64,000 bases of DNA from Dissulfuribacter thermophilus (lineage in GTDB: Bacteria; Desulfobacterota; Dissulfuribacteria; Dissulfuribacterales; Dissulfuribacteraceae), in NCBI RefSeq assembly GCF_001687335.1, contig NZ_MAGO01000006.1, positions 124,001 to 188,000 on the forward strand, given 5' to 3'. The translations under genes and the position numbers were made by a program. The notes under the pieces were generated by a model, which was given only the letters and a program-made list of their open reading frames with translations, was not told where the DNA came from and did not search any database. This document shows positions 46,971 through 63,974 of the stretch, piece by piece (position 1 is the first letter of the stretch; every line of letters begins with the position of its first letter).

Positions 46971-47047
46971 GCGCCCGTAGCTCAGCTGGATAGAGCGCCG
47001 GACTACGAATCCGTAGGTCGGGAGTTCGAATCTCTCCGGGCGCGCCA
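46971..47047 (+). tRNA. tRNA-Arg (ACG), integration site of the mobile element
   Basis: 77 bases: acceptor GCGCCCG/CGGGCGC, D-arm GCTCAGCTGGATAGAGC, anticodon loop CTACGAA (ACG), T-arm GGGAGTTCGAATCTCTC, encoded CCA. The integrase gene starts 182 bases downstream in the same direction, the classic layout for integration into the tRNA 3' end. The second att copy is not in this window. Confidence 0.97.
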
Positions 47048-47054
47048 GAAAATT

Positions 47055-47089
47055 CAGGGATTACAGCAAGTTAGCTGTAATCCCTTTTT
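47055..47089 (+). terminator. Intrinsic terminator after tRNA-Arg
   Basis: GGGATTACAG / CTGTAATCCC perfect 10-bp stem with an 8-base loop, then TTTTTT. Confidence 0.9.
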
Positions 47090-47121
47090 TATTCCCTATT
47101 CTTTCCTTATAACTCCCCTAA

Positions 47122-47200
47122 AATTTTAGTGTTTATTTTTTTCTTAAATTAAATCAATAGCTTAGTAGCGTTTGTTATCAAATTTAGTGCTTATTTTTGA
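47122..47200. promoter_or_regulatory. Direct repeats, possible integrase arm-type sites
   Basis: TTTTAGTGTTTATTTTT (47124-47140) and ATTTAGTGCTTATTTTT (47182-47198) are near-identical direct repeats 58 bp apart, between the tRNA and the integrase start. Phage-type integrases bind such arm sites beside att. The strong AT bias makes chance similarity possible. Confidence 0.35.
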
Positions 47201-47229
47201 CTTTTTGTGATTTTTTTGTATTAAATTAA

Positions 47230-48309
47230 ATGGAACAAAAATGGAACAAGGCACCCATGGCCCGCATCCGTGTTTATAAAGGAAAATTTCGTACTACTTA
47301 CACGGCAACCGTCAGGATAAAAGGATACGACTCGGTCTCTGCAACATTTGACACAAAAACTGAGGCCAAAAACTGGGCCGCCCAGGTAGAGGCCCAGATG
47401 AGAAGTGGCCGATATATAGATCAGAAAACCGCTAAGAAAATCTCTTTTGCAGAGGCCCTTGATAGATATTTCGAGACTATTTCCTCAATGAAATCTCCCA
47501 ACAGTATGCGTAGAGATAGAGACTCAATAAAAGCAATCAAAGCCAATTTCAATACTTCCTTGACTCTAGCAGACATTACCCCTGAAAAAATTGCAAATTA
47601 CAGAAACAAACGACTGGAACAAGTTGCTCCATCAACTGTATTGAAGGAATTGGTCCTCATTTCTCACCTGTTTAATATTGCAGCTACCGAATGGGGTATC
47701 CCGATAAAAAATCCAGTCAAAAAGGTAAAAAAGCCCAAAGTCGATAATGCAAGGATTGTGTTCCTTTCCGAGTCCGAAATTCAGTGTCTTCTGGAAGCGA
47801 CACGTAAAAGTTCCAATAAAAAACTGTATCCTTATGTTTTACTTTTACTCCATACTGCGATGCGACCTGGAGAAGCCGCTGGTCTCAAGTGGGATCAGGT
47901 AAATTTCGAAGAGAAAGGTATTTTACTAAACAAAACTAAGAACAAGGAACCACGCTGGATACCATTGACCGATTCAGCACAGAAGGTTTTACAGGATTTG
48001 TACGATAAAAGAAATCCAGATTGTAATTGGGTGTTTTTACCCCCCAACCCCCATAAGAGACTGCTACTTATTCCTAGTCAATATTTCAAGAAATCCTGGA
48101 CAACAGCAAAAAAAAGAGCAGGACTAGACCATATTCATATCCACGATCTTAGGCACACGGCAGCATCACATTTATTGAAAGCAGGAGTGGACCTCCGTAT
48201 AGTCCAAGAAATCCTCGGACATAAAACCCTCCAGATGGTGATCCGTTACACTCACATCCTGGATAGCCAGAAACGGGAAGCCATCGAAAAGCTTGATTCT
48301 CTCTTATAA
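47230..48309 (+). CDS. int: Phage/ICE-type tyrosine integrase
   Basis: 359 residues. N-terminal arm-binding domain (YKGKFRTTYTATVRIKGYDS), SAM-like core-binding domain (about 70-160) and catalytic domain with R212 (AMRPGEAAGLKW), H305xxR308 (HDLRHTAASH), H in ILGHKTLQM and nucleophile Y340 (RYTHI). Probably drives site-specific recombination at the adjacent tRNA-Arg. Alternative start: ATG 47257 (MARIRVYKG), which lines up better with short relatives; neither has a good Shine-Dalgarno sequence. Confidence 0.93.
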   Translation: MEQKWNKAPMARIRVYKGKFRTTYTATVRIKGYDSVSATFDTKTEAKNWAAQVEAQMRSGRYIDQKTAKKISFAEALDRYFETISSMKSPNSMRRDRDSIKAIKANFNTSLTLADITPEKIANYRNKRLEQVAPSTVLKELVLISHLFNIAATEWGIPIKNPVKKVKKPKVDNARIVFLSESEIQCLLEATRKSSNKKLYPYVLLLLHTAMRPGEAAGLKWDQVNFEEKGILLNKTKNKEPRWIPLTDSAQKVLQDLYDKRNPDCNWVFLPPNPHKRLLLIPSQYFKKSWTTAKKRAGLDHIHIHDLRHTAASHLLKAGVDLRIVQEILGHKTLQMVIRYTHILDSQKREAIEKLDSLL

Positions 48310-48362
48310 ATATATATATATATCTTAAAAAAAGAGAGAGGGCAGTTTTTTTGAGGCCCCGC

Positions 48363-49066
48363 CACTACACTTCTCTTTACCTTTTGCAAAACACCGTATC
48401 TTTCCAGCCACTTACGAGTTCCTGAACCCGTATTTTTACCGCTACACATCTCTTTACCTTTTATGGGGCAGGACAAGAAAAATTGGAGTCATTTAAGTGT
48501 GTTGGGACCTGCTACACACCTCTTTACCTTTTGCTACGGTTCTCTTTACCTTTTGCGCTACCTGGCTCTTTACCTTTTGGGAAAATATCGTCAAAACAGG
48601 CCGTTAGGCAGGGAAGGTCTGCTACGATCCACTTTACCTTTTCCCAACACTTTATTTTGACAGCAAAAAAATATCCGTTCGGCGAGGTCCTCGAGGATCC
48701 TGCTACATACCTCTTTACCTTTTGCTACACCTTGCTTTACCTTTGCTAACTTGCCGTTTTTAATACAGAAAAATCGCCAACCATGTTATAGCTATTAGAT
48801 TTTTTTAAATCAAAACAAGTAGTTAGTGCTAGCTACCTTTTTCTTTACGTTTCTGGTTACACATCTCTTTAGTTTTTATGATGGCTACATATATCTTTAG
48901 TTTTCTCAACAGATTGTTTTTACAAGGAAAATGTTTATGGGATAAGGTCTGCTCTTTGAAATAATCTATAATTACAGCTAGTTATCCTTGATACATTATT
49001 CTTTACCTTTTTGCTATCCAATTCTTTGATTTTCATTTCCCTGGCTACAGTTCTGTTTACTTTCGT
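48363..49066. repeat. Iteron-like array of about 14 degenerate 22-23 bp repeats
   Basis: Consensus GCTACA-N4-CTCTTTACCTTTTG. The best copies start at 48441, 48511, 48533, 48557, 48621, 48702 and 48724; further or weaker copies are at 48363, 48832, 48856, 48884, 48990, 49013 and 49044. Where copies abut, the period is 22-24 bp, two helical turns. All are in the same orientation. No coding sequence lies in 48310-49104. The pattern is that of replication iterons or of an operator/centromere array, not CRISPR: spacing is irregular and units are degenerate. Confidence 0.7.
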
Positions 49067-49104
49067 CTTCAGTTTTTACCCCAAAAAAGACAGAGGAGAC
49101 CTTT

Positions 49105-51621
49105 ATGTTCGATTTCACGTGGGAATTAGCGGAAAAATTTGGTCTGAGCGAACGGTTTGGAAAAAAACTGGATCATGATAGGCTAGCAGATTTCCTGCCT
49201 TATAGGGCCTGGGACCCGGAAAATTACATTTTTCTCCTAGATCACGGGAAAGAAAACAGGATCGGGTGGTTCTTTGTCTCTGAAGTAACAGTTCCGCCCA
49301 AAGAATCATTCCTCCAGGAATTTGAATCTCTCTTGTCGGTTATGCCGCCCAAAAGTACCGTACAGATACTGATGGCCCAAATGCCCTTTATCGGGGAAAC
49401 GATTTCTGACTTCTTGAAACTCAGGAATAGAACAAAATTAAAAATTTCTGAGGAGAAGCAGAAAGTTTTAACCCACATGATGGCCGAAAAGGCTAAATTA
49501 TACAGAAAACTTACGGAAGGATTACAGGATTCCTCTTACCCACTCCTTTTGAAAAAACCTTACATTTTCTTCAGTTTCACCGTATCTCCTTCTGAACTAA
49601 CTGTAGACAATGTGATAAGTACGATCCAAAAGACTAAAAGCGTACTTCAGACAGCTGGATTCGATACGAAAAAGGGGGTTCCCGCCGACCTTTATAATTT
49701 TATTTACTTTCTATTTAGTGATCCTGAAGGCATCCTCCCCCCCTCCTACACCACTCCATTTAAGGCCTGTCTTACTAATAAAAAATATAAAGCCGATTCT
49801 CTTCTGGAAAATTTATTTATACCTCTCTCAGAATTGATTTCGCCCCCATCCATAGGCATTAAAATAACTTCGGATACCCTTCTAACAAACGCAAACAGAT
49901 TCATTGCCACAGTTTCTTATCGCCAATATCCAGATGCGGTTGAACCTGGTATGGTGGACCGCCTGGTAGGTGATAATAGAAAAACCGAAATCCAGCTGCC
50001 ATATACGGTAATTCACGTCCTAAACATTTATGTTCCGGACCAGATCTCTATAAAATCCAATATCGCTAATAGACATGCAGTAGCAGCGTGGCAAACTTTT
50101 GGTCCTCTCGCCAAATTCAATCCTAAAGTAGGAAAAGTAAAAGATGATTTGGCCGAACTGATGAACAGAGCTGAAAAGGAACTTATCCTTAAGGCTTACC
50201 TGCACACTATTGTACTTGCTAATTCTGAAAAACAGCTCGAAGAGGCCACATATTCATATATCACCCATGCAAAAAGACATGGATTCCTTCCTGTGAGAGA
50301 CAAATTTGTTATGGCCCCTCTACTCCTGAATTCCCTCCCAATGGGTCTATATCCTGATGAGGCACCAAAACTTTTCAGAACAAGAACATTATCATCCTCT
50401 ATGATCGGATGCCTTGCGCCGGTACATGCTGAAGGAGGCAGTTTCGGTAAACCTTATCTTCTTTTCTCCACAAGAAGAGGATATCTGATTACAGGTGATA
50501 TTTTCGCCTCACCTCAGGGATATAACGGCCTTATTTTTGGAGGAACTGGCGGTGGAAAATCCTTTTTTCTCAATGAACTTACGGCCTCATATTTTTCAGC
50601 AGGTGCTAAAATTATTATTCTGGATGTAGGTAAGAGTTTTAAAAAGTTATGTGAAATGCTGGATGGCGAATATATAAACTTTGAAGACACGTCCAATGTA
50701 AATATCAATCCGTTTGCACATCTCTCTGATGATCCTGAACTCCTTGTAGATGACATGGAAATGCTGAAAAATTTTGTGGAATCAATGGCAGCTCCCAAAA
50801 AAGGATTAACTGATTTTCAGATGGGCGCATTGACAGAAATTATCGCTGATGTGGCAGAAAAATACAAACAGGAGACTACCTTTGACCTTATAGCGGAAAA
50901 ACTGGCACAACATTCGGATCACAGAATAAAAGATATTGCCACTATGCTTAAACCTTGGTGTAAAGGTGGAGAAAACTACAGATGGGTGGCTGGAGGCAAA
51001 TCCATAAATTTTGAATCTGACCTCATTGTGATCGAAATGGAAGCATTGATGCAACGCACCCATCTGCAAAAAGTATCGCTATATTATTTAATGTACCGCA
51101 TTTCTCAGGATTTCCTGCTAAAAACCATGAAAGATCCCTCTTTCAGAAAAAAACCAAAATTTTTGTTTATAGATGAAGCATGGGAAGCTTTAAAGACAGG
51201 AACTGCTGATTTTATTGAAAGGGCCTATAGAAGATTTCGCAAAACAGGTTCAGGATGCTGGATTATTACCCAAGGCCCAAGCGATCTAGATGGAAGTGCT
51301 GTCGCTGATGCACTTTGGAATAACTCACACTTCGTAGTCTCCCTAAGAGTGGAAAATTTCAATAAGGAAAAAGCAAAAAAATATCTGTCTGACTATGCTC
51401 TCTCAGTAATTCCTACACTGAAAACTGTTAAGGGCCAGTTCTCCGAAATATACATGAAAACCCCATTCGGTGAAGACATATTAAGATTTTATGCTCCAAG
51501 ATATACCCAACTTGTCTATACAACAGATGCAACTGAATCAGCTATTATTGAAAAACTTCTTGATGAAGGTTTGAGTTATGATCGAGCTCTTCGGAAGATT
51601 ATTGCAATGGAAAAACGATAA
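49105..51621 (+). CDS. VirB4/TraC-family conjugation ATPase
   Basis: 838 residues. The N-terminal half (about 1-440) resembles the TraC/VirB4 N-domain. The ATPase half has Walker A GGTGGGKSF (K485) and Walker B FLFIDEAWEAL (D690, E691), followed by WIITQGPSDL. This is the energy-providing ATPase of F-type type IV secretion. RBS AGAGGAG precedes the ATG. No other pilus or channel gene is visible in the window. It overlaps the next gene by 44 bases. Confidence 0.88.
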   Translation: MFDFTWELAEKFGLSERFGKKLDHDRLADFLPYRAWDPENYIFLLDHGKENRIGWFFVSEVTVPPKESFLQEFESLLSVMPPKSTVQILMAQMPFIGETISDFLKLRNRTKLKISEEKQKVLTHMMAEKAKLYRKLTEGLQDSSYPLLLKKPYIFFSFTVSPSELTVDNVISTIQKTKSVLQTAGFDTKKGVPADLYNFIYFLFSDPEGILPPSYTTPFKACLTNKKYKADSLLENLFIPLSELISPPSIGIKITSDTLLTNANRFIATVSYRQYPDAVEPGMVDRLVGDNRKTEIQLPYTVIHVLNIYVPDQISIKSNIANRHAVAAWQTFGPLAKFNPKVGKVKDDLAELMNRAEKELILKAYLHTIVLANSEKQLEEATYSYITHAKRHGFLPVRDKFVMAPLLLNSLPMGLYPDEAPKLFRTRTLSSSMIGCLAPVHAEGGSFGKPYLLFSTRRGYLITGDIFASPQGYNGLIFGGTGGGKSFFLNELTASYFSAGAKIIILDVGKSFKKLCEMLDGEYINFEDTSNVNINPFAHLSDDPELLVDDMEMLKNFVESMAAPKKGLTDFQMGALTEIIADVAEKYKQETTFDLIAEKLAQHSDHRIKDIATMLKPWCKGGENYRWVAGGKSINFESDLIVIEMEALMQRTHLQKVSLYYLMYRISQDFLLKTMKDPSFRKKPKFLFIDEAWEALKTGTADFIERAYRRFRKTGSGCWIITQGPSDLDGSAVADALWNNSHFVVSLRVENFNKEKAKKYLSDYALSVIPTLKTVKGQFSEIYMKTPFGEDILRFYAPRYTQLVYTTDATESAIIEKLLDEGLSYDRALRKIIAMEKR

Positions 51622-53083
51622 AAAATTCCGTATTGGAACAGGCATTTATCTCAAAGACCTTCCATATCCAGAAGCTACAAAACTCAATATCGACCTTCCA
51701 GAGAAATTTAGAAACGGCCATGTAGGAATATTCGGTACAACAAGGTCTGGGAAAACAAGACTCGCTGAAAATCTGATTGAATGGGACATTAGACAGGGTA
51801 AATCCGTATGGATAATTGATCCAAAAGGAGATATTGAACTCCTTTCAAAGATAATTCAAACCTGTATCCTTACAAACAGACTCGACCACTTCTATTTCTT
51901 CTCACCTTTTCACCTAGATATCTCGGTGAAAATAAATCCTCTGGCGTACTGGGTGATTCCAGAAGAAATAGTGCACCATGTGGCGAGTAGTATTGCTTCC
52001 GGAAAAGGAGATGATGCGGACTTCTTCTACAAGGTGTCGAAAGAGGTCCTCCTTGTTGTGGTACGTTCTCTCCAGGTCCTGGATGTGATTGCCGGAAGAA
52101 CCCCTGAATTCAACCTGGTTCGCCTCAATCATTTCATTTCATACACAGACCTGAAAAAATTATATACTCAGTTAAAACAACTAACCAGTTCCGTGGGAAC
52201 AGTCCATCTCGAAGGACAACCTGTAAAGCAGATAATTGAAAATGAACTTTTACCAAAACTCGCACAAATGCTGGCCCAGAAAGAGGATCACTTTTCAAAG
52301 GTATCTGGTTCTCTTAGAACAGAACTCTCTCAACTCACACTCGGTACCATTAACAGGTTGTTCTCAGATGTAAAAGAAAACCCCATTTTTGAAAGACTTA
52401 TCAATAACCAACCTACCGTATTTTACTGTTCAACAGCCAGCCTTATAACCAGGGATACGGCAAATATCGTTGGGAAAATCATCCTCTCCGGCCTTCAAAG
52501 CATCTCAGGCCATTTCAATGCTGAGGGTAAAAAATTCAATCCCCCTCTTGCAGTACACGTAGATGAAGCCAGCAATGTACTCTATCCAGGAATGGATGAT
52601 TTGTTCAATAAGGCCGGTGGAACAAACGTACATCTAACTCTCCTTACCCAGTCTCTTGCTGATTTTGAAACCGCAATTGGTAAGGCATACTGCCAGAAAA
52701 TACTGGATAACCTGAATACTCAAATCTGGCTCAGAACGGGAAGTAAAGAAACCGCACTATATGTGGCCGATAAGGCCGGTAAGATCAAAACTTACTCCCC
52801 AACTCTATCAATTGGTGGGTTCTCCACGGCAAGAGAAATGGAGAAAAAAGTACTTTCGGATACCGCGCTGACTGAATTTAAACCCAGGGAATTCGTAGCG
52901 TTTATATACGAACAATCATACATGGGCTACACATCCACGGTATCCCCGCTGCATCTAAATCTCATCATGCCCACGCTGAAATGGAAAAAACCCAGTAAGA
53001 ACGATTCGCCAGCAGAAAACGTGCAGGAAGTTCTAAGCGAACCCGATATAAAGAGATTTAGAAGAAGATATTGGGCACACTAA
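51578..53083 (+). CDS. TraD/VirD4-HerA-like coupling ATPase
   Basis: 501 residues. Walker A GTTRSGKTRL (K59), WIIDPKGDIELL strand, Walker B AVHVDEASNVL (D329, E330), LTQSLADFETAIG sensor. This is the layout of type IV coupling proteins (TraD/TraG) and HerA helicases that move DNA. It lacks the N-terminal membrane helices of full-length VirD4, so it would be soluble. It starts inside the end of the TraC-like gene. Whether it serves conjugation or intracellular DNA translocation is open. Confidence 0.85.
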   Translation: MIELFGRLLQWKNDKKFRIGTGIYLKDLPYPEATKLNIDLPEKFRNGHVGIFGTTRSGKTRLAENLIEWDIRQGKSVWIIDPKGDIELLSKIIQTCILTNRLDHFYFFSPFHLDISVKINPLAYWVIPEEIVHHVASSIASGKGDDADFFYKVSKEVLLVVVRSLQVLDVIAGRTPEFNLVRLNHFISYTDLKKLYTQLKQLTSSVGTVHLEGQPVKQIIENELLPKLAQMLAQKEDHFSKVSGSLRTELSQLTLGTINRLFSDVKENPIFERLINNQPTVFYCSTASLITRDTANIVGKIILSGLQSISGHFNAEGKKFNPPLAVHVDEASNVLYPGMDDLFNKAGGTNVHLTLLTQSLADFETAIGKAYCQKILDNLNTQIWLRTGSKETALYVADKAGKIKTYSPTLSIGGFSTAREMEKKVLSDTALTEFKPREFVAFIYEQSYMGYTSTVSPLHLNLIMPTLKWKKPSKNDSPAENVQEVLSEPDIKRFRRRYWAH

Positions 53084-53223
53084 CAAAAATGATTCAAAAA
53101 TATACTCTTAGCTCCCAATTTGAACAAATTTTGTAACATACTGGACTTACAAAAAGACCCGGTATACAAAATTACAAATACTAGAAAGATATTTAATGCT
53201 TTTATGTCAAAAAAGACTGCTCT

Positions 53224-53252
53224 TTGACAATTGGCTATTCTTTATCTTTTAT
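53224..53252 (+). promoter_or_regulatory. Candidate sigma-70 promoter of the ssb module
   Basis: TTGACA (53224-53229), a 17-base spacer, then TTTTAT (53247-53252). The rest of the 53084-53345 gap is AT-rich with repeated CTTTTATC stretches and no gene. Confidence 0.45.
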
Positions 53253-53344
53253 CTTTTATATTCAAACTATTTTCTTTATCTTTCACTTTTATCTAACGAA
53301 CTTTTATCTTTTAACTTTAGGAAAAAGTTAAAAGACTACATCGC

Positions 53345-53435
53345 AACCCCACCAGGGGGACGTCATATTACCCCTTGGCGGGGAGCATACGTCCTCCTGG
53401 TGAAAAATAAAAAAATAAAAAGAAAGGAGGACGTT
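53345..53435 (+). promoter_or_regulatory. A-B-C-D switch leader 1 (ssb)
   Basis: A: CACCAGGGGGACGT (53350-53363). B: CCCCTTGGCGGGG (53371-53383). C: ACGTCCTCCTGGTG (53389-53402). D (ribosome site): AGGAGGACGT (53425-53434). C pairs with D over 10 bases without mismatch, or with A over 14 bases with a single G-U pair. A also pairs with B (CCCC.CCAGGGG). Confidence 0.7.
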
Positions 53436-53834
53436 ATGGTAAAATCGGTAAACAAGGTTATCTTAATCGGAAGACTTGGGGCAGACCCAGAAATTCGCTA
53501 CACACAGGCTGGAACGCCTGTAGCAAGCTTTAGAATAGCAACCAACAACCGGATAAAGAGAGGAGAAGAATGGGTAGAGGAACCCGAATGGCATCGCATA
53601 GTTGCTTGGAACAAGCTTGCAGAAATCTGTGAGCAGTATCTCAAAAAAGGAATGCTTGTCTATATTGAGGGTCAGCTTCGTACAAGGGCCTGGGAAGATC
53701 AGGATGGTAATAGGCGTTGGACAACTGAGGTACACGCAAGAGAAATGCAGATGCTTGAATCCAAGGGCTCAGGATCAATGGAAGAAAGCGAGCTTGAGCC
53801 CCCTCCAATTGATGAAGATGATGTGCCGTTTTAA
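53436..53834 (+). CDS. ssb: Single-stranded DNA-binding protein
   Basis: 132 residues, one OB fold (NKVILIGRLGADPEIRYTQ, ASFRIATNN, EWHRIVAWNKLAE, YIEGQLRTRAWED) and the acidic C-terminal tip DEDDVPF that recruits partner proteins. Start ATG 53436 follows AAAGGAGG. A longer frame upstream to 53196 runs through the leader and is not coding. It is shorter than chromosomal SSB of most bacteria, with a very short linker. First gene of the leader-controlled module. Confidence 0.95.
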   Translation: MVKSVNKVILIGRLGADPEIRYTQAGTPVASFRIATNNRIKRGEEWVEEPEWHRIVAWNKLAEICEQYLKKGMLVYIEGQLRTRAWEDQDGNRRWTTEVHAREMQMLESKGSGSMEESELEPPPIDEDDVPF

Positions 53835-53859
53835 CAAGATTAACTGAATTTGAACTCAT

Positions 53860-53943
53860 TACCCCGCCGGGGGAGACTTTGCTTCCCCCGGTTGGGGAAC
53901 TGCATGGTCTCCTCCGGCATAACCAAAAAAAGGAGGAGAAACC
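53860..53943 (+). promoter_or_regulatory. A-B-C-D switch leader 2
   Basis: A: GCCGGGGGAGAC (53866-53877). B: TCCCCCGGTTGGGG (53884-53897). C: GTCTCCTCCGGC (53907-53918). D: AGGAGGAGA (53931-53939). A:C is 12 bp with one G-U pair, C:D is 8 bp, A:B includes CCGGGGGA with TCCCCCGG. Confidence 0.7.
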
Positions 53944-54726
53944 ATGCAAAATACAAATGAAATCCCCACCCTTGCTCTTAATGTAGAAGAAGTCGAAACT
54001 TTACATTCTGTACCCCAAAATCCACTGGACGAGGCTTTGCCTCTGGAACAGGTCAAGGCCCAAGTCCAGCTTATACAGCGGGTTATGCAGGGGGTAATGA
54101 AAAAGGACGAACACTATGGTGTCATTCCAGGCTCCAGCAAACCCGTCCTTTACAAGGCGGGGGCAGAAAAACTAGCGATGACCTTTCGCCTTGCTCCCAA
54201 ATACGAAATAACTCGCTACGACCTGCCCAACGGGCATAGAGAATACGAGGTAATTTGTCATATATATTCTATCATTTCCGGCAAATTCCTTGGAAGCGGT
54301 ACCGGTAATTGCTCTACACTTGAGAGCAAATATCGTTACCGTAGCGGTCCCATTGAACCTACTGGCAGGCAAGTGCCAAGGAAATACTGGGATCTGCGTA
54401 AAACAAACCCGGAAGCAGCCCAAAAGGTCATCGGCGGTCTTGGATATGCGGTCAAAAAAATCAATGGCCGCTGGGAAATCGTTCGGAAGGGCGAACGTAT
54501 CGAAAATCCGGACCCTGCTGATTGCTGGAATACGGTAAAAAAAATGGCGAAAAAACGTGCGTTCGTTGACGCCATACTAACCGTAACGGCTGCTTCGGAT
54601 ATTTTTACTCAGGACATTGAAGATGAATCCTCTCCACCGGAGGCTGATCCGCCTCAACCGCAACCACAAACGGAAGCCCCTAAGGAATCCGTTTCGGAAC
54701 GGGGAGAGGATGATATACCCTTTTAA
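53944..54726 (+). CDS. Mobile-element protein with SSB-like acidic tip, function unknown
   Basis: 260 residues. The conserved-looking core is DEHYGVIPGSSKPVLYKAG, then AEKLAMTFRLAPKYEI and TGNCSTLESKYRYR. A low-complexity proline/glutamine linker leads to the C-terminus GEDDIPF, almost the same as the DEDDVPF tip of the SSB encoded just upstream. Similar uncharacterised proteins occur in phages and plasmids beside recombination genes. A single-strand annealing or ssDNA-associated role is an inference from position and tip only. Confidence 0.82.
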   Translation: MQNTNEIPTLALNVEEVETLHSVPQNPLDEALPLEQVKAQVQLIQRVMQGVMKKDEHYGVIPGSSKPVLYKAGAEKLAMTFRLAPKYEITRYDLPNGHREYEVICHIYSIISGKFLGSGTGNCSTLESKYRYRSGPIEPTGRQVPRKYWDLRKTNPEAAQKVIGGLGYAVKKINGRWEIVRKGERIENPDPADCWNTVKKMAKKRAFVDAILTVTAASDIFTQDIEDESSPPEADPPQPQPQTEAPKESVSERGEDDIPF

Positions 54727-54733
54727 TTAAACC

Positions 54734-54795
54734 AAAAGCCGTAAGCACAGCCGTATCCACGGCAATTCCAACACCTGCTTACGGCTTTTGTTTTA
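54734..54795 (+). terminator. Intrinsic terminator between leader-controlled genes
   Basis: AAAAGCCGTAAGCA (from 54734) pairs with TGCTTACGGCTTTT ending near 54789, then GTTTT. The loop contains a second hairpin GCCGTATCCACGGC. If active, transcription of the downstream genes needs read-through or a new promoter close to leader 3. Confidence 0.65.
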
Positions 54796-54800
54796 TGAAT

Positions 54801-54883
54801 ACCCCGCCGGGGGAGACTGAGGTTTCCCCTGGCCGGGGATTCCCGTCTGTCTCCTCCGGCATAATCATGAAAGGAGGAGACAA
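54801..54883 (+). promoter_or_regulatory. A-B-C-D switch leader 3
   Basis: A: GCCGGGGGAGAC (54806-54817). B: TCCCCTGGCCGGGG (54825-54838). C: GTCTCCTCCGGC (54849-54860). D: GGAGGAGAC (54873-54881). C:D is a perfect 9-bp stem covering the ribosome site; A:C is 12 bp with one G-U. Confidence 0.75.
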
Positions 54884-55819
54884 ATGGTAGCATTTGAATC
54901 TTTCATACTTACCAGGCTTCAAGAACTCTCAGCACTTCATACAAAACAATATCTTGGCGACAGAAGCCAATACATCGGGGCTTCAGATATAGGCCACTGT
55001 CCACGCAAGGTTGTACTCTCAAAATTGAATGGAGAGGAAATAGACCTTGCCACTCATATCAAATTCATGAGAGGACACCTAGCTGAAGACCTGGTTGCCG
55101 GGATATATGAGAAATACAACCCCCAACGCCAGGTTGAACTAGAACTCGACGATCCCGTGCCCATCAAGATTCACCTTGATTTACTATTTCAACCCACAAC
55201 CAAACAGGAAGTCGGAGTGATGGAAGTAAAAGCTTCTTCCATTCCTGAGACACCATACGAGTTGTGGGAGATGCAATTACACTTTCAGATGGGCGTGATG
55301 GCAAGGCATACACAAAAGGCCATCAAGGGGGCCATCATAGTAGTGGATCTCAACGACGGTGACATCCGCCGGTTCAACGGCTATACCCCGAATGAGACCA
55401 TCTTCAATGGTCTCCTTAAAAGAGCAAAACATATCTGGGACTGCATTACAGAAGGGACAGAGCCGGAAACGGAAGTCACTCCGCTTTGCGGTTACTGCGC
55501 CTTTATAAAGGATTGTCCAAGATTCCAGGCGGATGAAATACCTGAACTTGCCGGGGATGTGTTGAAGGTCCTGGAGGCCAAAGACAGGAAGAAGGCCTCT
55601 GAAGCGGAATACAAAAGGCTTGCCAGCAGACTTCTTGATATCGTCAAGAAAAAAGGTGCTTTTAAGGCGGGAGGACACAGGATTGACAAGATCGACCGTC
55701 ATTCCACCCGCACGGATTGGAAAAAGCTGGCTGATGATCTGGGGACTATCAACAAGTCCCTAGACGACTATCAGACCAAAAATCCTTATTCGGTCCTTGA
55801 TATCAAGACCTTGCAATAA
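54884..55819 (+). CDS. Cas4/RecB-like PD-(D/E)XK nuclease with Fe-S cluster
   Basis: 311 residues. Nuclease motifs: E68 in GHLAEDLV, D99 in KIHLDLLF, E114-x-K116 in GVMEVKAS, and Q131 in EMQLHFQ. Cysteines C39, C202, C205 and C211 (one N-terminal, three C-terminal) are placed as in Cas4 and AddB, which bind a 4Fe-4S cluster. No cas1 or cas2 is nearby, so a recombination exonuclease acting with SSB is more likely than CRISPR adaptation. The C-terminal 90 residues form a helical extension. Confidence 0.87.
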   Translation: MVAFESFILTRLQELSALHTKQYLGDRSQYIGASDIGHCPRKVVLSKLNGEEIDLATHIKFMRGHLAEDLVAGIYEKYNPQRQVELELDDPVPIKIHLDLLFQPTTKQEVGVMEVKASSIPETPYELWEMQLHFQMGVMARHTQKAIKGAIIVVDLNDGDIRRFNGYTPNETIFNGLLKRAKHIWDCITEGTEPETEVTPLCGYCAFIKDCPRFQADEIPELAGDVLKVLEAKDRKKASEAEYKRLASRLLDIVKKKGAFKAGGHRIDKIDRHSTRTDWKKLADDLGTINKSLDDYQTKNPYSVLDIKTLQ

Positions 55820-55831
55820 TGAAGAAAAAAC

Positions 55832-55906
55832 GCCATCCCGCTGGGGGAGCGCAGACACTCCCCTGGCGGGGGTCTGCCTCCTCCACGGGATGTGAAAGGA
55901 GGCAGA
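55832..55906 (+). promoter_or_regulatory. A-B-C-D switch leader 4
   Basis: A: CATCCCGCTGGGGGAGCGCAG plus AC (55834-55856). B: TCCCCTGGCGGG (55859-55870). C: GTCTGCCTCCTCCACGGGATG region (55872-55892). D: GGAGGCAG (55898-55905). C:D is perfect over CTGCCTCC/GGAGGCAG. A:C pairs over CATCCCG, GGGGGAG and GCAGAC with two bulged C. Confidence 0.7.
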
Positions 55907-57457
55907 ATGAAAATATACACAGACGCCAAGGAACTCTCCAAAATTTTAAAATCTCTGGACTGGAAGATGCCTAGATACTCTCAGGCAATTTTAGATTACG
56001 CCCTAATCAGTTGCGACGATCAGGGCATTCATATTATGAGGAAAGACCTTAATATTTTTCTATCTCACAAGATTTCAGGAGAGATCGAGAAGCAGGGCGA
56101 GGTCCTGGTTCCGGTGAAAAAGGTCCTCACGGTTTTAGGGACCTGCAAAGAGCAAATCCCCCTGGAATACGACGGGGATTACCTGAGAATGGGGAATTAT
56201 GTGCTAGACACCGTTCCAGCACATACAGAAGATTATCCCAAAATCCCCGAAGAAAAATTCAGGGAGATAGGAGTAATTAAAGGCCATGCACTGGCCTACG
56301 CCATTGAGAAATGTAACCCTTTTTTGGGGGATCCAGATAAATATACTCTGCACCACTTCTCATTCGGCCATTACGGCCACATGGCCTCAAGCGATAGTCA
56401 TAGAATATGCCAGGTTCCATTAGAAATTGATTGCCAACTGGTAGTACATAACACCCTGGCATATCTCAAAAAAATAAACCTGGAAGGCGACCTCAAAATT
56501 GCCCATTCGGACAAACACATTCGAATAAAGGGCAACAATTTTGTCGCCTACATCTCCCTAATAGACGGGCAATACCCCCCATATAAGGAGGTAATCCCGT
56601 CAAAAGGGGTTCCTCTAAGAGTAAACGCCGATGACCTTATAGCAACCTTGAAAGAGGCAGTCGCATACTGCAAGGCTGCTACCAAGGAAAAGGATTTCGT
56701 TCCGGTAATCATTCACTGGCTGCAGGATGGCATTAAAGTTGTCGGTAATTTCTCATCCGAACATCGTTTTGAGAAAATGCTGTCAACAGCATTTTCGCAA
56801 ATCCCCGTTTCTGTACCTTTAAATGTCCCGTATTTGCTTCAGGCACTTAAAGGATTAACGGGGGAAATAATTATCTGGTATGCCGGAGATGATAAGCCTT
56901 TTATCATTACAGATGGAGTTACCTATCGGTATATCCAAATGCCCGTTAATATCGAACGTGAAGAAAAAAATGAATATTATGAACTCCCCAAAGACACTCC
57001 TTTGCAGGAGATTCCCTACTCTCCTGATCCTAGTGCAATTCCTGAACCAACCAGAAAAAAAGCCGGTTCAAGGAAGCGCACTGTTAAGAAGGCCGCCAAG
57101 CCTTCTAATAAGAAGGCGTCTTCGGAGCAAGAGGCACAGGGAAAGGCCCTTGCCGAACTCAAAAAACGTCTCGACTTTTGGGAGGCGGAGGCTCTCAAAA
57201 AAGAGGAGCATATCCGCAACCTGGAGGCTGAACTGGCAAAATTGCAGGAGTCCTACAGGGCACTTTTGCAATTCCAGGCCCTGAGGCCAAACGGCAAGGG
57301 TAGATATGCGGTGATAGATGGCCACCAATACCTGTTCTCTCAGGGCAAAATCCTTGATAAGGATGGGAACGAGGTAGGCCACTACAACCGCAAAGGCGGT
57401 GAAATCAACGGCCAGCCATTCAAACTCCAGCAGGAGTGGGTGGTGGCCATGAATTAA
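55907..57457 (+). CDS. DNA polymerase III beta-clamp (DnaN) homologue with coiled-coil tail
   Basis: 516 residues. The first 360 have the three-domain sliding-clamp layout: DYALISCDDQGIHIM, EVLVPVKKVLTVLG, MASSDSHRICQVPL (DnaN ATDGHRL equivalent), and QYPPYKEVIPSK. The C-terminal 150 residues are additional: a basic KKAGSRKRTVKKAAK linker, a coiled coil (about 415-460) and a small beta domain. Start ATG 55907; the in-frame GTG 55892 lies in leader segment C/D. Element-encoded clamps may recruit host polymerase; the tail may tether another factor. Confidence 0.85.
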   Translation: MKIYTDAKELSKILKSLDWKMPRYSQAILDYALISCDDQGIHIMRKDLNIFLSHKISGEIEKQGEVLVPVKKVLTVLGTCKEQIPLEYDGDYLRMGNYVLDTVPAHTEDYPKIPEEKFREIGVIKGHALAYAIEKCNPFLGDPDKYTLHHFSFGHYGHMASSDSHRICQVPLEIDCQLVVHNTLAYLKKINLEGDLKIAHSDKHIRIKGNNFVAYISLIDGQYPPYKEVIPSKGVPLRVNADDLIATLKEAVAYCKAATKEKDFVPVIIHWLQDGIKVVGNFSSEHRFEKMLSTAFSQIPVSVPLNVPYLLQALKGLTGEIIIWYAGDDKPFIITDGVTYRYIQMPVNIEREEKNEYYELPKDTPLQEIPYSPDPSAIPEPTRKKAGSRKRTVKKAAKPSNKKASSEQEAQGKALAELKKRLDFWEAEALKKEEHIRNLEAELAKLQESYRALLQFQALRPNGKGRYAVIDGHQYLFSQGKILDKDGNEVGHYNRKGGEINGQPFKLQQEWVVAMN

Positions 57458-57469
57458 ATCTAATTTCAA

Positions 57470-57550
57470 TCCCATGATCCCATGCGGGAGAAGACGTGTT
57501 TTTCTCCCGCATGGGAGGAGTCATGTCTTCTCCCGCTGAAAGGAGGAGGC
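57470..57550 (+). promoter_or_regulatory. A-B-C-D switch leader 5
   Basis: A: CCCATGCGGGAGAAGAC (57479-57495). B: TCTCCCGCATGGG (57503-57515). C: GTCTTCTCCCGC (57525-57536). D: GGAGGAGGCAT (57542-57552), which reaches into the start codon. A:B is a perfect 13-bp stem, A:C a perfect 12-bp stem, C:D 11 bp with two G-U pairs. Confidence 0.75.
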
Positions 57551-57715
57551 ATGACGGTCAAACTGCAAAACAAAACTCAGATTTATCTGAACGGTACCTA
57601 CAAATCAGTTATGAAGCAAGCCAGAAGGTTCATTGCAAAAGGATTCAGGTGCGTGGGCTTTATTGGCTTGCGGCGTAACGGAAAATCTACCGCCCTGGTC
57701 ATGCTGGAAAAATGA
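57551..57715 (+). CDS. 54-residue P-loop mini-protein, probably a truncated ATPase
   Basis: Short frame with its own switch leader. The C-terminal half reads GFIGLRRNGKSTALVMLEK, in which GLRRNGKST fits Walker A (GxxxxGKST), then stops. No Walker B follows in any frame before leader 6. It may be the stump of a larger ATPase or a genuine small protein. The leader and position support translation. Confidence 0.6.
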   Translation: MTVKLQNKTQIYLNGTYKSVMKQARRFIAKGFRCVGFIGLRRNGKSTALVMLEK

Positions 57716-57779
57716 CCGGAGGTGGGGAGATGATATAGTGGAGACTGAAGAGATAAGTCTGAATAAAATAAGATAGCAA

Positions 57780-57872
57780 TCCCCAAAGCCGGGGGCAGAA
57801 CTCTTTGCCCCCGGCGGGGTGTCACGTTCTGCCTCCGGCATTTCTTCCGTTTAAAGGAAAGGAGGTAGAACG
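57780..57872 (+). promoter_or_regulatory. A-B-C-D switch leader 6
   Basis: A: GCCGGGGGCAGAAC (57788-57801). B: GCCCCCGGC (57807-57815). C: CGTTCTGCCTCCGGC (57825-57839). D: GGAGGTAGAACG (57861-57872), ending at the start codon. A:B is 9 bp perfect; A:C is 14 bp with one G-U; C:D is 12 bp with one G-U. Confidence 0.75.
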
Positions 57873-58649
57873 ATGTATTATTTAACAAATGAAGAAATTA
57901 TATCTTTGGCCCCGGCAGCAGGAGCACAAGCTCCTATAAGAGGTGTATCAGAACGATATTCTTTCATTCCTACAATAGAAGCCGTTGATCTGTTACGGGA
58001 TGTCGGCTGGTTCCCTGTGGGTGTTCATCAGAGTCAAGTAAGAAAAGAAGAAAGGGATGGTTACCAGAAGCACATGATTCGTTTTGTGAAAGATGGGCTT
58101 TCGTTTGGTGGAGAACGCATTGATCTTGTTCTGTATAATTCTCACGATAGAGGTTGTTCTTTTCAGTTGATTGCATCAGTATGGCGAAAAATATGCGGAA
58201 ATGGCTTAATGGTGGCCTCTGACTTTGCAAATTTTACCCATAAACACATTGGATTCAATCCAGATGAATTTGTCAATTCGGCGAATAAGATTGTAGCAGT
58301 AGCTGATAATATTGCAGAATCCGTTGAAATGATGAAAACTATTGAGCTTACGCGAGATGAACGTAGTATATATGCTCAGGCGGCACATAGTCTTGTTTAT
58401 GAAGTCCCTGAGCAAGCGCCAATTCGACCAGAACAATTACTGCAAGAACGCCGCTATGACGACAATGGGAAAGATCTTTGGACCACATTTAATGTGGTCC
58501 AGGAAAACCTTATGAAAGGCGGTCTTACATATACTACAAAAAGTGGACGCAAAAGGCGTTCACGGCCTGTAAAATCGCTTGATCGTAATCTAAGACTAAA
58601 TAAGGCCCTATGGTTGCTCACAGAAAAGATGGCGGAGCTTAAAAGTTAA
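57873..58649 (+). CDS. DUF932 phage/plasmid-like protein
   Basis: 258 residues. YSFIPTIEAVDLLRDVGWFPV near the N-terminus, MIRFVKDGLSFGGERIDLVLYNSHDRGCSFQL and GNGLMVASDFANFTHKHIG match the DUF932 family common on plasmids, ICEs and phages. Biochemical role unknown. Last gene with a full switch leader. Confidence 0.85.
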   Translation: MYYLTNEEIISLAPAAGAQAPIRGVSERYSFIPTIEAVDLLRDVGWFPVGVHQSQVRKEERDGYQKHMIRFVKDGLSFGGERIDLVLYNSHDRGCSFQLIASVWRKICGNGLMVASDFANFTHKHIGFNPDEFVNSANKIVAVADNIAESVEMMKTIELTRDERSIYAQAAHSLVYEVPEQAPIRPEQLLQERRYDDNGKDLWTTFNVVQENLMKGGLTYTTKSGRKRRSRPVKSLDRNLRLNKALWLLTEKMAELKS

Positions 58650-59071: not shown

Positions 59072-59495
59072 CCAGAAAGGGGGCATTAGGCCTCCTTTCT
59101 TTTTGGGCTAAGCTGTCTGATTTGCATAGAAAGAGCCTGTACTGCCGTCCCAAAGTGGAAAAAGGTTAACAGACATAATTCTTTAATAAAATATTATCTT
59201 TTATTTTATTCAGATACATAAATAATAGTGCTACAATATTATTATAATGACAATTTGATTTTGTTATCAAAATAACAACTGATTAAATCAAGCATTAATC
59301 CTTCTGCTAGAAAAAATCAAAATTTTCTCCAATTAACGCCAAATATTTTGATCTCTGATTTTTTATGGGTGTTTTCTAATACTTGCTTTTTCTGAAGAAT
59401 GGGCTATTAGAAAAAATATTCCTCGTTTCTACAAGAGGTGGGTTCCTCTTATAAATATAATGTTAGCCCATATAAAAACAATGAGATGACAAAAA
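59072..59495 (+). promoter_or_regulatory. AT-rich 5' region of the nuclease-STAND gene
   Basis: No gene seen. ATGGGCTA (59399-59406) and TAGCCCAT (59464-59471) are inverted and enclose a second hairpin AAGAGG (59433-59438)/CCTCTT (59445-59450), so the mRNA leader is folded. TATAAT (near 59243) with nearby AT tracts may be a promoter. GTTATCAAAATAAC (59262-59275) is a possible operator. Confidence 0.4.
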
Positions 59496-62285
59496 ATGAG
59501 AAGACTGAAAATCGTAGCTTCTGGAAAAAGTAGACAAGAAGAGGCTCAAAAAAGAGGAAAATTATTTGAAGAGTTAATGGCAAAGGTGCTGCGACATTAT
59601 GGCTATAACATAAATAAACATAAAACAAATGTAAATTATGCTGGCATGGAAATTGATATAGAAGGAGAGGCGCGTATCGCTGGAATACCCCTTTTCGCAG
59701 AATGTAAGTGCTATGGTTCTGACATTACTGCGGAAAAATTGCAAACATTTTTTGGAAAATATATGAGCTTTTGGTTAAAAGATAATAAGAGTGAAGGGCT
59801 CTTTATTGCAATACCAGGAGTCAATAGTCACGCAAGAGGATTTTATAACGAAAATTGCAAATCAAATAGTCAAATTTCAATAAAAATCATCGAAGAACCC
59901 GATATTATAGATATTATAATAGATAGTGGATTAATTATTAATGAAGCAGAAATTGATAAATTGATTAAAGATGATCTAGTCCCGGGTGATAGAATTTTAA
60001 TATATAGTGACAAAGGACTATTCTGGCTTCAATATTTAATTTCTAAAGGTTCCACTCTCCCAACAAAAGTTCAAATATTTGATTCTAAAGGAAATACAAT
60101 AACTGATAATGATTCTCGTGAATACTTTATAAAATTACTTCCTGAAATTAAAGATTTTGAGTTTACAAAAGAAGATGGAAATATTTTATCTACTGAAGAA
60201 AAAGAGCTTATAGTTGAATTAAGAGGAAGTTCTGCCTATTTTGAATACCAATTTCCAGCGAATCCTCAGTTCTTTATTGGCAGGCAACAACTTGTTTCAG
60301 ATATAGATAATTTTTTTAATGACGTTATTAATCACAATGCTTCATTAAGAAGCATTTTATTTGAAGCTAATTCTGGATGGGGGAAGAGTTCTCTTGTTTT
60401 AAAAATTGTTTCCCGTCTTAAAGAACTTGGACATTATGCTATAGCAATTGATTCTAGATCAGCTTCAAGTGCTCAATTTATTTTACATGCTATAGAGCAT
60501 ATAATTAAGAAATTTGGCAATTTCAATAACCTGATTGAGGAAGAACCTGTAATTACTGGATTTGAGGGAGTAATTAACGCATTAATTAAAATAGGAAATG
60601 CACTAAAAAGTCAGAAAAAACTATTGTTAGTGTTTTTTGATCAATTTGAAAATATTTTCTATCTAGAAGAAGTATTAGTTAAAATTGTACAACTTATTTT
60701 AAAAATCACAGATATTCAAACTAATATTATACTTGGCTTTTCTTGGAAAACAGATCTAGTGGGATTAACATCCGAATTCCCATATAAATGGAGAGATAAA
60801 ATTGTTGAGTCTAGTCAAGTATTTCATTTAAAACAATTTTCAGAAGTAGAAACCAATATTCTTTTGGACAAATTATCTGATGAGCTTCATGCTAAATTGA
60901 GGAAAGACCTGCGTTTTTTAATATCGGAGTTTTCTCAAGGATATCCTTGGCTACTTAAAAAGTTATGTGCTCATGTAAAAAAACAGAGAGAAAATGGTGT
61001 CCCACAGGCAGATATGGTAAGGGGGCTTCTAAATGTAGAACAACTTTTCTTAGATGACTTAGAAGGATTGACACCAGAACAAGAAGAAGCATTAAGACAA
61101 ATTTCTAAACAAGCTCCCATTAATATTTCTGAAATAGGAGAAGAACTTTCACCGACCGTTATACAGACTCTAGTTGACCGAAGATTGATAGTCAGAGTTG
61201 GAACTAAATATGATATTTATTGGGATATTTTTAGAGATTATCTTAATACAGGTAAGCTACCAATTGAAGAGGTTTATCTTCTAAGATCCTCTGTTGGGAG
61301 TGTTTTTAAAGCAATTACAATATTGCAAAACAATAATGGTAAATTACTAATACATTCTTTCAAAGAACAAGCAAATCTTTCTGATGGAGCTTTTTTAAAT
61401 ATCGCTCGCGATCTTCGTTTACTTAAAATTGTAAAAATAGAAAATAATAATATTGTTCTCATGTTACCAATAGGAACAGATGAATCAGAACTATTACAGA
61501 ACTTTCGTAATTACTTAAATGATCATTTATTGAGAAATCGATATATCTTTAATGTTGTACAACTTATCAAGGATAAAGGAGAAATAAGTATTTATGATTT
61601 AGCACATATACTTCAAAGTGAATTCCCTTATATCTCTGCTTCTGAGAAAACATGGATAACATATGCAAAAATATTAGCCGGTTGGCTCGACATAGCTGAT
61701 TTAGCAATATGGGATAAATCAAATGAAAAGTTGATAAAATTTAAGGCTGGTACTCAGGTTAGAGATCATTCATTAGTATTTGCAAAAAAAAGAACTAGAT
61801 TATCAGTTCCTTCTATACAATTTGCACCAATTTGTGAAGTAGCAAAACGCCTTGTAACAGCAGCAAAAAATAATGAGCCGGTGAATTGGTCAGGTTTGTC
61901 AAAGAGTACGATTTACAAGTCGCTTGCTATGCTTGAAGAAATGAATTTAATTAGGAGAGAAGCAAAAACACTTACAATTTTACCTGATTGTTATGACTTT
62001 ATAGATAGAAGAAACACTTTGAAAATTGTTAAAGATATAGTTACTAAATGGAAAATTTTTAAATCATTTATTGAAATTCTTAATGAGAATCATAATAATC
62101 GATTAACTCATGTCCAACTAGGTAAATTGTTAATTAAAAAATATTCTCTTGAATGGAAGCTTTCAACTGCAGAGACAAATGTGAAAATAATGCTAGACTG
62201 GGCAAGACATCTTAATCTTGCTCCTGGAGTTTTTTCTCATACATATAGAGGGAAATTTAAAGCTAAGGATAACAAAGTGAACTAA
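59496..62285 (+). CDS. PD-(D/E)XK nuclease-STAND ATPase, probable anti-phage defence protein
   Basis: 929 residues. The N-terminal nuclease (about 18-130) has GKLFEELMAKVLRHYGY, D54 (MEIDIEG) and E69-C-K71 (FAECKCYG), as in Mrr/Cap4-type restriction nucleases. The NTPase (about 265-500) begins with FIGRQQLVSDI and has Walker A NSGWGKSS (K297) and Walker B VFFDQFENI (D382, E385), typical of STAND/NACHT switches. The C-terminal 400 residues contain several winged-helix segments instead of the long repeat sensor of Avs proteins. Much richer in A/T than its neighbours. It may degrade DNA after sensing a phage product; this is inference. Confidence 0.8.
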   Translation: MRRLKIVASGKSRQEEAQKRGKLFEELMAKVLRHYGYNINKHKTNVNYAGMEIDIEGEARIAGIPLFAECKCYGSDITAEKLQTFFGKYMSFWLKDNKSEGLFIAIPGVNSHARGFYNENCKSNSQISIKIIEEPDIIDIIIDSGLIINEAEIDKLIKDDLVPGDRILIYSDKGLFWLQYLISKGSTLPTKVQIFDSKGNTITDNDSREYFIKLLPEIKDFEFTKEDGNILSTEEKELIVELRGSSAYFEYQFPANPQFFIGRQQLVSDIDNFFNDVINHNASLRSILFEANSGWGKSSLVLKIVSRLKELGHYAIAIDSRSASSAQFILHAIEHIIKKFGNFNNLIEEEPVITGFEGVINALIKIGNALKSQKKLLLVFFDQFENIFYLEEVLVKIVQLILKITDIQTNIILGFSWKTDLVGLTSEFPYKWRDKIVESSQVFHLKQFSEVETNILLDKLSDELHAKLRKDLRFLISEFSQGYPWLLKKLCAHVKKQRENGVPQADMVRGLLNVEQLFLDDLEGLTPEQEEALRQISKQAPINISEIGEELSPTVIQTLVDRRLIVRVGTKYDIYWDIFRDYLNTGKLPIEEVYLLRSSVGSVFKAITILQNNNGKLLIHSFKEQANLSDGAFLNIARDLRLLKIVKIENNNIVLMLPIGTDESELLQNFRNYLNDHLLRNRYIFNVVQLIKDKGEISIYDLAHILQSEFPYISASEKTWITYAKILAGWLDIADLAIWDKSNEKLIKFKAGTQVRDHSLVFAKKRTRLSVPSIQFAPICEVAKRLVTAAKNNEPVNWSGLSKSTIYKSLAMLEEMNLIRREAKTLTILPDCYDFIDRRNTLKIVKDIVTKWKIFKSFIEILNENHNNRLTHVQLGKLLIKKYSLEWKLSTAETNVKIMLDWARHLNLAPGVFSHTYRGKFKAKDNKVN

Positions 62286-62332
62286 GAAATGTGTAACATC
62301 TTATTGATTGGTTGATTGGGCTAACTCGAGTA

Positions 62333-62357
62333 AAGGCGGGGATTTCCCCCGCCTTCC
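62333..62357 (+). terminator. Hairpin after the nuclease-STAND gene
   Basis: AAGGCGGGG-ATTTCC-CCCGCCTT strong stem about 50 bases after the stop codon, without a T-run. The rest of 62286-62505 shows no gene. Confidence 0.5.
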
Positions 62358-62505
62358 CCACACCACCTAGCTACAAGCCCGCAAAAGACACGATTTTCTT
62401 TAACCAAGCAGTAAACAGGCGGTAAGAGGACGAGACTCCTGAATTAAGAAAAACTTAAGCCTTGGCTAATTTTCTTCTTCTATAACTCTATATAGAATCT
62501 TTAGT

Positions 62506-63974
62506 GTAGTTGTTCCTGAAAAAGGTTTAACTACTGAAAATAGTTAGACTTTCTTCTAAAAATCTGTTAAATTCTTTGCAAGAAAATAGACCGAATGGAG
62601 CCATTTTCTTGCAAATTTTGCCATGAAACCCAAAGCATCACCTATAAAAGACAGACAGAGACAATTGTTTTCTATTGAATTATCTAAACTCGTCAATCCC
62701 AGCCATCCAATGGTTAAGCTGGCCAAGGCCATAGACTGGGATCGGTTAGATGAAGTATTTGGGAAGACTTATTGTCCCAATAAGGGCCGTCCTGGGATTA
62801 GTACCAGGTTGATGGTAGCTCTTCATTATTTGAAATACACTTATAATTTGAGTGATGAGGCTGTTGTAGAGGGTTGGATAGAGAATCCATACTGGCAATA
62901 TTTTAGCGGTATGAAGTATTTTGAACATGAGTTTCCAATAGATCCATCCAGTATGACTAGATGGAGAAAGAGGATCAAGGAGTCAGGGGCAGAGGAACTG
63001 TTGAAGGAGACGATTTCTGCGGGTTTGCGACTTAAGGCCATAAATGCAAGCTATCTCAAGAGAGTTAATGTTGATACCACAGTGCAGGAAAAGTCCATAA
63101 GGTATCCCACCTATGCCAGACTTTATGACAGGGCCAGGGCAAGATTAGTAAAATTGGCTAAGGCAAGGGGAATCAACTTAAGGCAGAATTACAATCGTCT
63201 TTCCAGGAAGATGCTTATTCAACAGAGTCGATATGCCCGAGCCCGACAGATGAAGCGAGCGTTCAAGTGTACCCAAAAGCTTAGGGTCTGGCTTGGTAGA
63301 GTGATCCGGGATATTGAACGTAAGTGTCCAAAACCAGATGAAGAATTGAGTTCATTATTAAAGATATCCAAGAGAATCTATTTTCAGAAGAAGCAAGATA
63401 AAGATAAGATTTACAGTGTTCATGAATCCCATGTAGAGTGCATTAGTAAGGGCAAGTCCCACAAACGATATGAGTTTGGTTGCAAGGTATCTGTAGCAGC
63501 CACGAGCCGAGGAGGTTGGTTTGTAGGAGCTAAGGCATTTCATGGCAATCCCTATGACGGTCACACCTTAGCCGAAGCCTTAAAACAAATAGAACGCTTA
63601 TCTCAGAGGCCAGACCATGTATTTGTTGACCAGGGATATCGTGGTCACAATTACAAATCAGGAGAGATTGAAGTTCACGTTTACCGGTCACATCGAGGCA
63701 GAATAGCCAAGAGTCTATGGAAATGGATGAAGCGAAGAGCGGCTATAGAGCCATAAGCCATCTGAAACATTGCCACAGGATGGACCGCAATCGTCTCAAG
63801 GGGATTCTTGGAGATTGCCTAAATGTAATCCTATCAGCAGCGGGTATGAATTTCCACAAGTTGCTGCGCTGGGCAGCAGTCTTTTGGCGCTCAATTTATC
63901 ATGAATTGCTTTTGGCCTTCAGATTTACTCATTCCTATGGATAAAATTAAAAAAGATTTTTGCAGTATCAACTA
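62506..63974 (+). mobile_element. IS5-family-like insertion sequence
   Basis: About 1.47 kb. The left end TAGTTGTTCCTGAAAAA (from 62507) is matched inverted at the right end (TTTTTGCAGTATCAACTA, to 63974) with a few mismatches. TTTAGT flanks it on both sides (62500-62505 and 63975-63980), a likely 6-bp target duplication with one ambiguous base at the left end. It carries one transposase gene, now frameshifted. Confidence 0.7.
62623..63944 (+). pseudogene. IS5-family-like DDE transposase, frameshifted near its C-terminus
   Basis: The first frame gives 377 residues with an N-terminal DUF772-like region (GRPGISTRLMVALHYLKYTYNLSDE), first D in RVNVDTTVQEK, second D in VFVDQGYRGH and the glutamate in RRAAIEP. 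It stops at TAA 63754-63756. The adjacent frame continues ISHLKHCHRMDRNRLKG and LSAAGMNFHKLLRW, the normal C-terminus of this family, to TAA 63942-63944. One base has been lost at about 63753, or a -1 shift at CCATAA is used. The catalytic triad is kept upstream of the break. Confidence 0.78.

Follow-up and report, generated by a model that had tools for sequence, protein, structure and literature searches.

A mobile nuclease–STAND protein with a C-terminal winged-helix array from Dissulfuribacter thermophilus: very probably an uncatalogued single-gene defence weapon

In a window of 64,000 nucleotides of the Dissulfuribacter thermophilus genome (contig NZ_MAGO01000006.1, positions 124,001 to 188,000 of the forward strand), one gene was found to encode a protein in which an N-terminal Mrr-type PD-(D/E)XK nuclease is followed by a complete STAND switch and by three to four C-terminal winged helices, with no repeats (Table 1). 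Considering its effector, its switch, its patchy occurrence as mobile cargo and its residence in hotspots, the role of this protein would in all likelihood be defence. Very probably, this one gene forms a weapon against phages or plasmids that has not been catalogued, since its relatives occupy known defence slots of phages and satellites, and are found in bacteria and archaea. A nuclease–STAND defence reading had already been proposed in the initial annotation, and it was strengthened here by catalytic, Walker, GxP-like and MHD-like motifs that are all intact, by a patchy cross-phylum spread and by residence in P4 and P2 hotspots. The family is missed by current defence annotation because it has no PADLOC or NCBIfam entry, though about 1% of complete E. 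coli genomes carry it in a hotspot already published; such a natural E. coli copy makes the family directly testable in K-12.

Table 1. Coordinates of the gene, its encoded domains and the carrier element in the window
Feature	Position	Strand	Basis
tRNA-Arg(acg), probable integration site of carrier element	46971..47047	+	ARAGORN; integrase follows at 47230
Tyrosine integrase of carrier element	47230..48309	+	Phage_integrase 1.3e-39
Conjugation genes: TraC/VirB4-like ATPase, VirD4/TraD-like coupling protein	49105..53083	+	Pfam
Plasmid-type accessory genes: SSB, small protein (53944), Cas4-like nuclease, beta-clamp-like protein, DUF932	53196..58649	+	Pfam
AT-rich 5' leader with nested hairpin, judged ordinary	59399..59471	+	MFE -18.5, z -2.3
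Mrr nuclease–STAND NTPase–winged-helix array protein, 929 aa	59496..62285	+	ORF call, Pfam and model
Mrr-type PD-(D/E)XK nuclease, aa 1-150	59496..59945	+	Pfam Mrr_cat; AF1548 fold
Small beta-rich acidic linker module, aa 151-242	59946..60221	+	Model secondary structure; median pI 4.6
STAND nucleotide-binding domain, aa 243-449	60222..60842	+	nSTAND1; invariant motifs; NLR-type fold
Helical domain and STAND winged helix, aa 450-589	60843..61262	+	Conservation; motifs
First winged helix of candidate sensor, aa 590-660	61263..61475	+	Model pLDDT ~95; MarR-like wH, Z ~9
Second winged helix of candidate sensor, aa 661-770	61476..61805	+	FokI/Nt.BspD6I likeness together with first; basic
Further winged helix and helix bundle, aa 771-916	61806..62243	+	Pfam AAA_assoc_C aa 814-908, 9.9e-7

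Both termini of the ORF were backed by full-length homologues, and the length of family members ranges from 812 to 1036 aa. Three Pfam matches exceeded the curated cut-offs, namely Mrr_cat (aa 21-139), nSTAND1 (aa 255-424) and AAA_assoc_C, and an AlphaFold2 model of the whole protein, built on 53 family sequences, reached a pLDDT of 88.5. In the nuclease, which scored 26.3 bits against a Mrr_cat cut-off of 21, the E...ExD...ExK active site of Mrr-type PD-(D/E)XK enzymes was recognised within a REase fold as E25, E52-x-D54 and E69-C-K71 (codon starts 59568, 59649, 59655, 59700 and 59706), and AF1548 (1y88) superposed on the modelled domain with Z 15.1 and an rmsd of 2.0 over 117 aa. Loss of nuclease residues in homologues, which had been named as an observation that would speak against defence, was looked for and was absent, given that E25, E52, D54, E69 and K71 were kept in 97–100% of 93 homologues. 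Mrr_cat was detected by Pfam in 48 of the 53 family members, and another effector on the same switch was dismissed as a candidate, the long and divergent members tested still having Mrr_cat. Regarding the description of the nuclease as “Mrr/Cap4-like”, the Mrr part was retained, while the Cap4 part proved unneeded: the CBASS effector Cap4 has a C-terminal SAVED domain and a CD-NTase partner, whereas Pfam scans of the window protein and the 53 members returned no SAVED domain and the family has no conserved neighbour gene.

The nuclease and its acidic linker are followed by a STAND NTPase of the nSTAND1 branch, a domain that Pfam recognised in 52 of the 53 members. Its NBD-HD-WHD core carries Walker A (SGWGKSS, aa 293-299), Walker B (DQFE, aa 382-385) and a WKTD motif (aa 417-420), with G294, G296, K297, S298, S299, D382, Q383, F384 and E385 invariant in the 93 homologues. 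A GxP-like SQGYPW (aa 480-485) and an MHD-like YWD (aa 575-577) were near-invariant in the same set, P484, W485, Y575 and D577 being kept without exception, and both motifs would act as contacts of a receptor switch. Mean pairwise identity was 41% in the HD-WHD part, the most conserved of the protein, and 34% in the NBD. The whole core (aa 243-589) matched the structures of NOD2, NLRC4, Apaf-1 and MalT with Z values of 15–18. The protein shares with these NLR-type STAND proteins, and with bacterial nSTAND1 proteins, the same core and the same Walker, GxP-like and MHD-like motifs, whereas its effector is a nuclease and its candidate sensor is a winged-helix array rather than LRR, WD40 or TPR repeats.

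As anticipated by the initial annotation, the C-terminus of this rather short protein consists of a series of winged helices and not of an Avs-type repeat sensor. The array extends in the model to about aa 916 and was predicted with confidence even alone (pLDDT 91, pTM 0.80), and the 25 Pfam families met most often in the 53 members include no repeat family. It is also basic, with a median pI of 9.5. The pI of the array lies above 8.5 in 91% of members, whereas that of the nuclease does so in 8% and that of the helical/WHD part in 4%; the second winged helix (aa 661-770) exceeds this value in 89% of members, and aa 771-929 bear a charge of +12 in the window protein. Additionally, no other folded part diverges as much, the mean pairwise identity being 18–23% in the array versus 34–41% in the STAND core, the lowest value (18%) belonging to the basic aa 771-916 segment. 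Such divergence is as expected for a putative sensor engaged in an arms race.

Structural comparison of the array by VIA-align ranked Nt.BspD6I first (Z 9.6, rmsd 3.4 over 150 aa), and FokI reached Z 8.5 over 155 aa. These values are modest, since single MarR-like wH domains reach Z 9.2 over only 60–75 aa. No Foldseek match to the array with E < 0.001 was obtained, and a search of PDB with its sequence matched only single wH regulators. A multi-wHTH module common to FokI, DndG, SspB and BrxA is reported to bind DNA in systems of restriction and defence (PMC10853773, PMC12839542). Tandem winged helices serve DNA recognition in the recognition domains of FokI and Nt.BspD6I and in DndG, SspB and BrxA; the likeness of the array to them is structural and modest, and those modules appear without STAND fusion in the available portions of PMC10853773 and PMC12839542.

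The gene is rare around its host and widespread far from it. It occurs once in the genome of the window, which was also the sole match among 60 host relatives, and two other genomes matched among 297 of the phylum. A scan restricted to one genome per species recovered at least 136 relatives, of which 80, most of them full length, were kept, from many bacterial phyla and from Lokiarchaeota, Methanosarcinales and Thermoplasmata. Further relatives were found in viral contigs (18) and in records of a plasmid collection (15, some of them chromosome-sized), and none was detected by tblastn in the GenBank phage collection. In a tree of 73 proteins, the window protein grouped with proteins from Cloacimonadota and Aminicenantes bins, next to Bacteroidales, archaeal and desulfobacterial proteins. 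Single placements in this tree are soft, because bins may hold foreign contigs, but the cross-phylum breadth is not.

Across 92 loci around the homologues there was no conserved neighbour gene, the recurrent ones being integrase-like families and satellite genes that are nearly identical, and an operon partner was therefore discarded. PglZ, DRT4/6, Druantia-type genes, type II RM genes and AbiD were present among the neighbours; random regions of the host phylum also matched many PADLOC models (a Cas I-B locus and UvrD-type helicases, for example) in a comparison that counts models and not genes, so that no conclusion on a defence enrichment of the neighbourhood is drawn. On a Fuscovulum plasmid (locus L139, 10528-13566), a gene for a SIR2-family protein lies downstream of the homologue; recombinases separate the two and also lie next to them, and the locus is possibly a defence island. 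Three homologues were broken: one frameshifted in A. baumannii VB1190 (L011, 7956-10651), one interrupted by an ISKra4-type transposase gene in Allocoleopsis (L140, 1743-5920) and one split in E. coli VE-V10-F (L147, 15929-18561), which may be a sign that the gene is costly to carry.

In five P4-satellite-type viral contigs (L098, L101, L103, L104 and L107), a psu-like gene is followed by the homologue and then by an integrase-like gene; for L101, psu was confirmed by PHROGs and the gene after the homologue is a phage integrase by Pfam. The proteins of L098 and L104 share only 25% identity, and hence no fewer than two lineages filled this P4 psu-int slot. Of 5,426 complete E. coli genomes, 53 matched 80% or more of the L101 stretch from psu through the gene to int, and in E. 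coli MCJCHV-1 the order at ssrA is psu, a 70-codon ORF, WP_000113630.1 and int. In three further loci (L092, L094 and L109), the homologue lies beside the portal and terminase genes of P2-like prophages, with one intervening ORF on that side in L109; in L094, the opposite flank of the homologue has a phage primase/toprim gene. A further lineage was located in genomic islands of 35 E. coli genomes, one of these islands being at tRNA-Phe.

Rousset et al. showed the P4 psu-int and P2 portal-side loci to be anti-phage hotspots, from which many systems were tested, sister elements holding unrelated defence systems at these sites (PMC9122126). The P4 cargo described there includes STAND proteins with a Mrr_cat effector (Table S1B), which share hotspot, effector and switch with the present family; they are described with C-terminal repeats, whereas the E. 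coli lineage reported here has winged helices. The WP_000113630.1 lineage may be an entry of that Table S1B, and the tables of PMC9122126 or those of DefensePredictor (PMC13092281) may include family members without characterisation.

Taken together, we consider it reasonably probable that the protein is a single-gene immune effector of mobile elements, whose array would sense nucleic acid or nucleoprotein of an invader, whose STAND domain would oligomerise and whose nuclease would cut DNA. At rest, the STAND domain would hold ADP in a closed monomer, through the GxP-like and MHD-like contacts. The trigger would be an invading nucleic-acid feature or nucleoprotein complex recognised by the array, most likely the DNA of a competing phage or plasmid, and recognition would lead to ADP/ATP exchange and STAND-mediated oligomerisation. 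The N-terminal Mrr-type domains would thus be brought together and cut either the DNA of the invader or DNA indiscriminately, with death of the infected cell. Neither a partner methylase nor a self/non-self mark was seen, which was counted against this explanation.

As for what is sensed, DNA would be distinctly favoured over protein, since the basic tandem winged-helix array resembles DNA-recognition domains. A more specific proposal, namely a STAND protein of the NLR type switched on by DNA via a multi-winged-helix sensor like those of FokI and DndG, in bacteria as well as in archaea, is put forward tentatively; if true, restriction-type DNA recognition would be joined to the all-or-none activation of NLR-type proteins in one gene. 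To our knowledge, the known nuclease–STAND defence proteins sense phage proteins by large repeat domains. With its compact basic array placed on a nuclease and a switch, this widespread family suggests that direct reading of DNA is also within the reach of bacterial NLR-type receptors.

The strongest competitor, although unlikely, is an Avs-like mechanism, in which the target of the array would be a conserved phage protein and infection would be aborted when the STAND-nuclease cuts DNA. Avs1-4 bind terminase or portal, and winged helices bind proteins as well as DNA. Moreover, the best solved-structure match of the whole model in Foldseek was Avs4 (AVAST type 4, PDB 8dgf; E 2e-8), which likewise joins a Mrr-type nuclease at the N-terminus to a STAND NTPase, and other STAND proteins of the P4 hotspot are thought to sense infection via C-terminal repeats (PMC9122126). 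However, the Avs4 chain exceeds 1,500 residues and ends in a repeat sensor that binds the phage portal, whereas the candidate sensor here spans only about 340 residues, contains no TPR or other repeat family among those commonest Pfam families, is basic and is similar to DNA-recognition modules. No Avs model was named among the PADLOC and NCBIfam matches, in a search that held no Avs positive control. Since the large C-terminal repeat sensor is lacking, the family was not filed as Avs; up to the sensor, it probably works like one.

PADLOC 2.0.0 and NCBIfam 20.0 contained no model of the family, and their partial matches were limited to the Mrr domain and the P-loop, to ATPase models of the Orc/Cdc6 type and to isolated HTH stretches; the PADLOC candidates PDC-S02/PDC-S20, which matched only the Mrr domain or the P-loop, were set aside. 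It is improbable that the protein is a stand-alone type II or type IV restriction enzyme, in which the array would read a DNA sequence or base modification, STAND would serve as a regulated motor or clamp and the nuclease would cut that same DNA molecule, without cell death. The FokI-like recognition fold, the annotation of WP_000113630.1 as “restriction endonuclease” in E. coli and the fact that Mrr is a type IV nuclease family agree with it, but the MHD-like and GxP-like motifs point to a receptor switch more than to a motor, and the neighbourhood shows no conserved methylase, although none is required by a modification-dependent enzyme.

Less probable still is a role outside defence, as a regulator or replication/maintenance factor of the mobile element with DNA-binding winged helices, MalT-like or Orc1/Cdc6-like, for although MalT was among the top STAND matches and 21 of the 53 members weakly matched the Orc1/Cdc6 profile, the nuclease residues are kept, no neighbour is conserved and the gene is an optional passenger of hotspots where sister elements have unrelated defence systems (PMC9122126). 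The likeness to Orc1/Cdc6 and archaeal ATPase_2 proteins is that of an AAA-type core with a C-terminal winged helix, to which the present family adds an N-terminal nuclease, several extra winged helices and a patchy life as mobile cargo. Membership of a housekeeping family, the other observation named beforehand as adverse to defence, was not the case.

Two features of base sequence had also been remarked upon. The gene is indeed AT-rich, with a GC content of 30.6% compared with 42.4% in the whole window and 47.0% in the 5 kb upstream, and recent acquisition had been suggested from this. However, 62 of 66 homologues are also GC-poorer than their own flanks (median -8 points), and therefore low GC is a family trait and, by itself, a weak sign of recent acquisition. 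Regarding the leader, whose nested hairpins had been called unlike the A-B-C-D leaders, the nested hairpin can form (MFE in kcal/mol in Table 1), but a z-score of -2.3 or lower was reached by 27 of 187 equal-length windows across the surrounding 7 kb, no equivalent structure was found upstream of 11 close homologues and Rfam returned no match. Thus, the hairpin is no more than the sequence gives anyway, and a special leader RNA was dropped. Beyond the gene, an intergenic stretch (62322-62383, 50–62 bases) holds a terminator-like GC-rich inverted repeat; the stretch has matches of 84–88% in three other places of the genome. It is followed by an IS5-family transposase region (62623-63960) whose ORF stops at 63756, corresponding to model positions 1-378 of 419; the copy looks broken, as its C-terminal coding appears to go on in another frame, and no second full copy was found in the genome.

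On the other side, the gene content indicates that the window gene is cargo of an ICE-like region at tRNA-Arg (46971-58649). The conjugation genes of this region were recognised by TraG P-loop (6.5e-35), TraC_F_IV (2.1e-34) and TraG-D_C (1.3e-13) matches. No second copy of the 24-base 3' end of the tRNA, allowing up to 3 mismatches, was found that could mark a right attachment site. Among the accessory proteins, the one encoded at 55892-57457 combines a weak likeness to the DNA polymerase III beta clamp with a long coiled-coil-like C-terminal extension.
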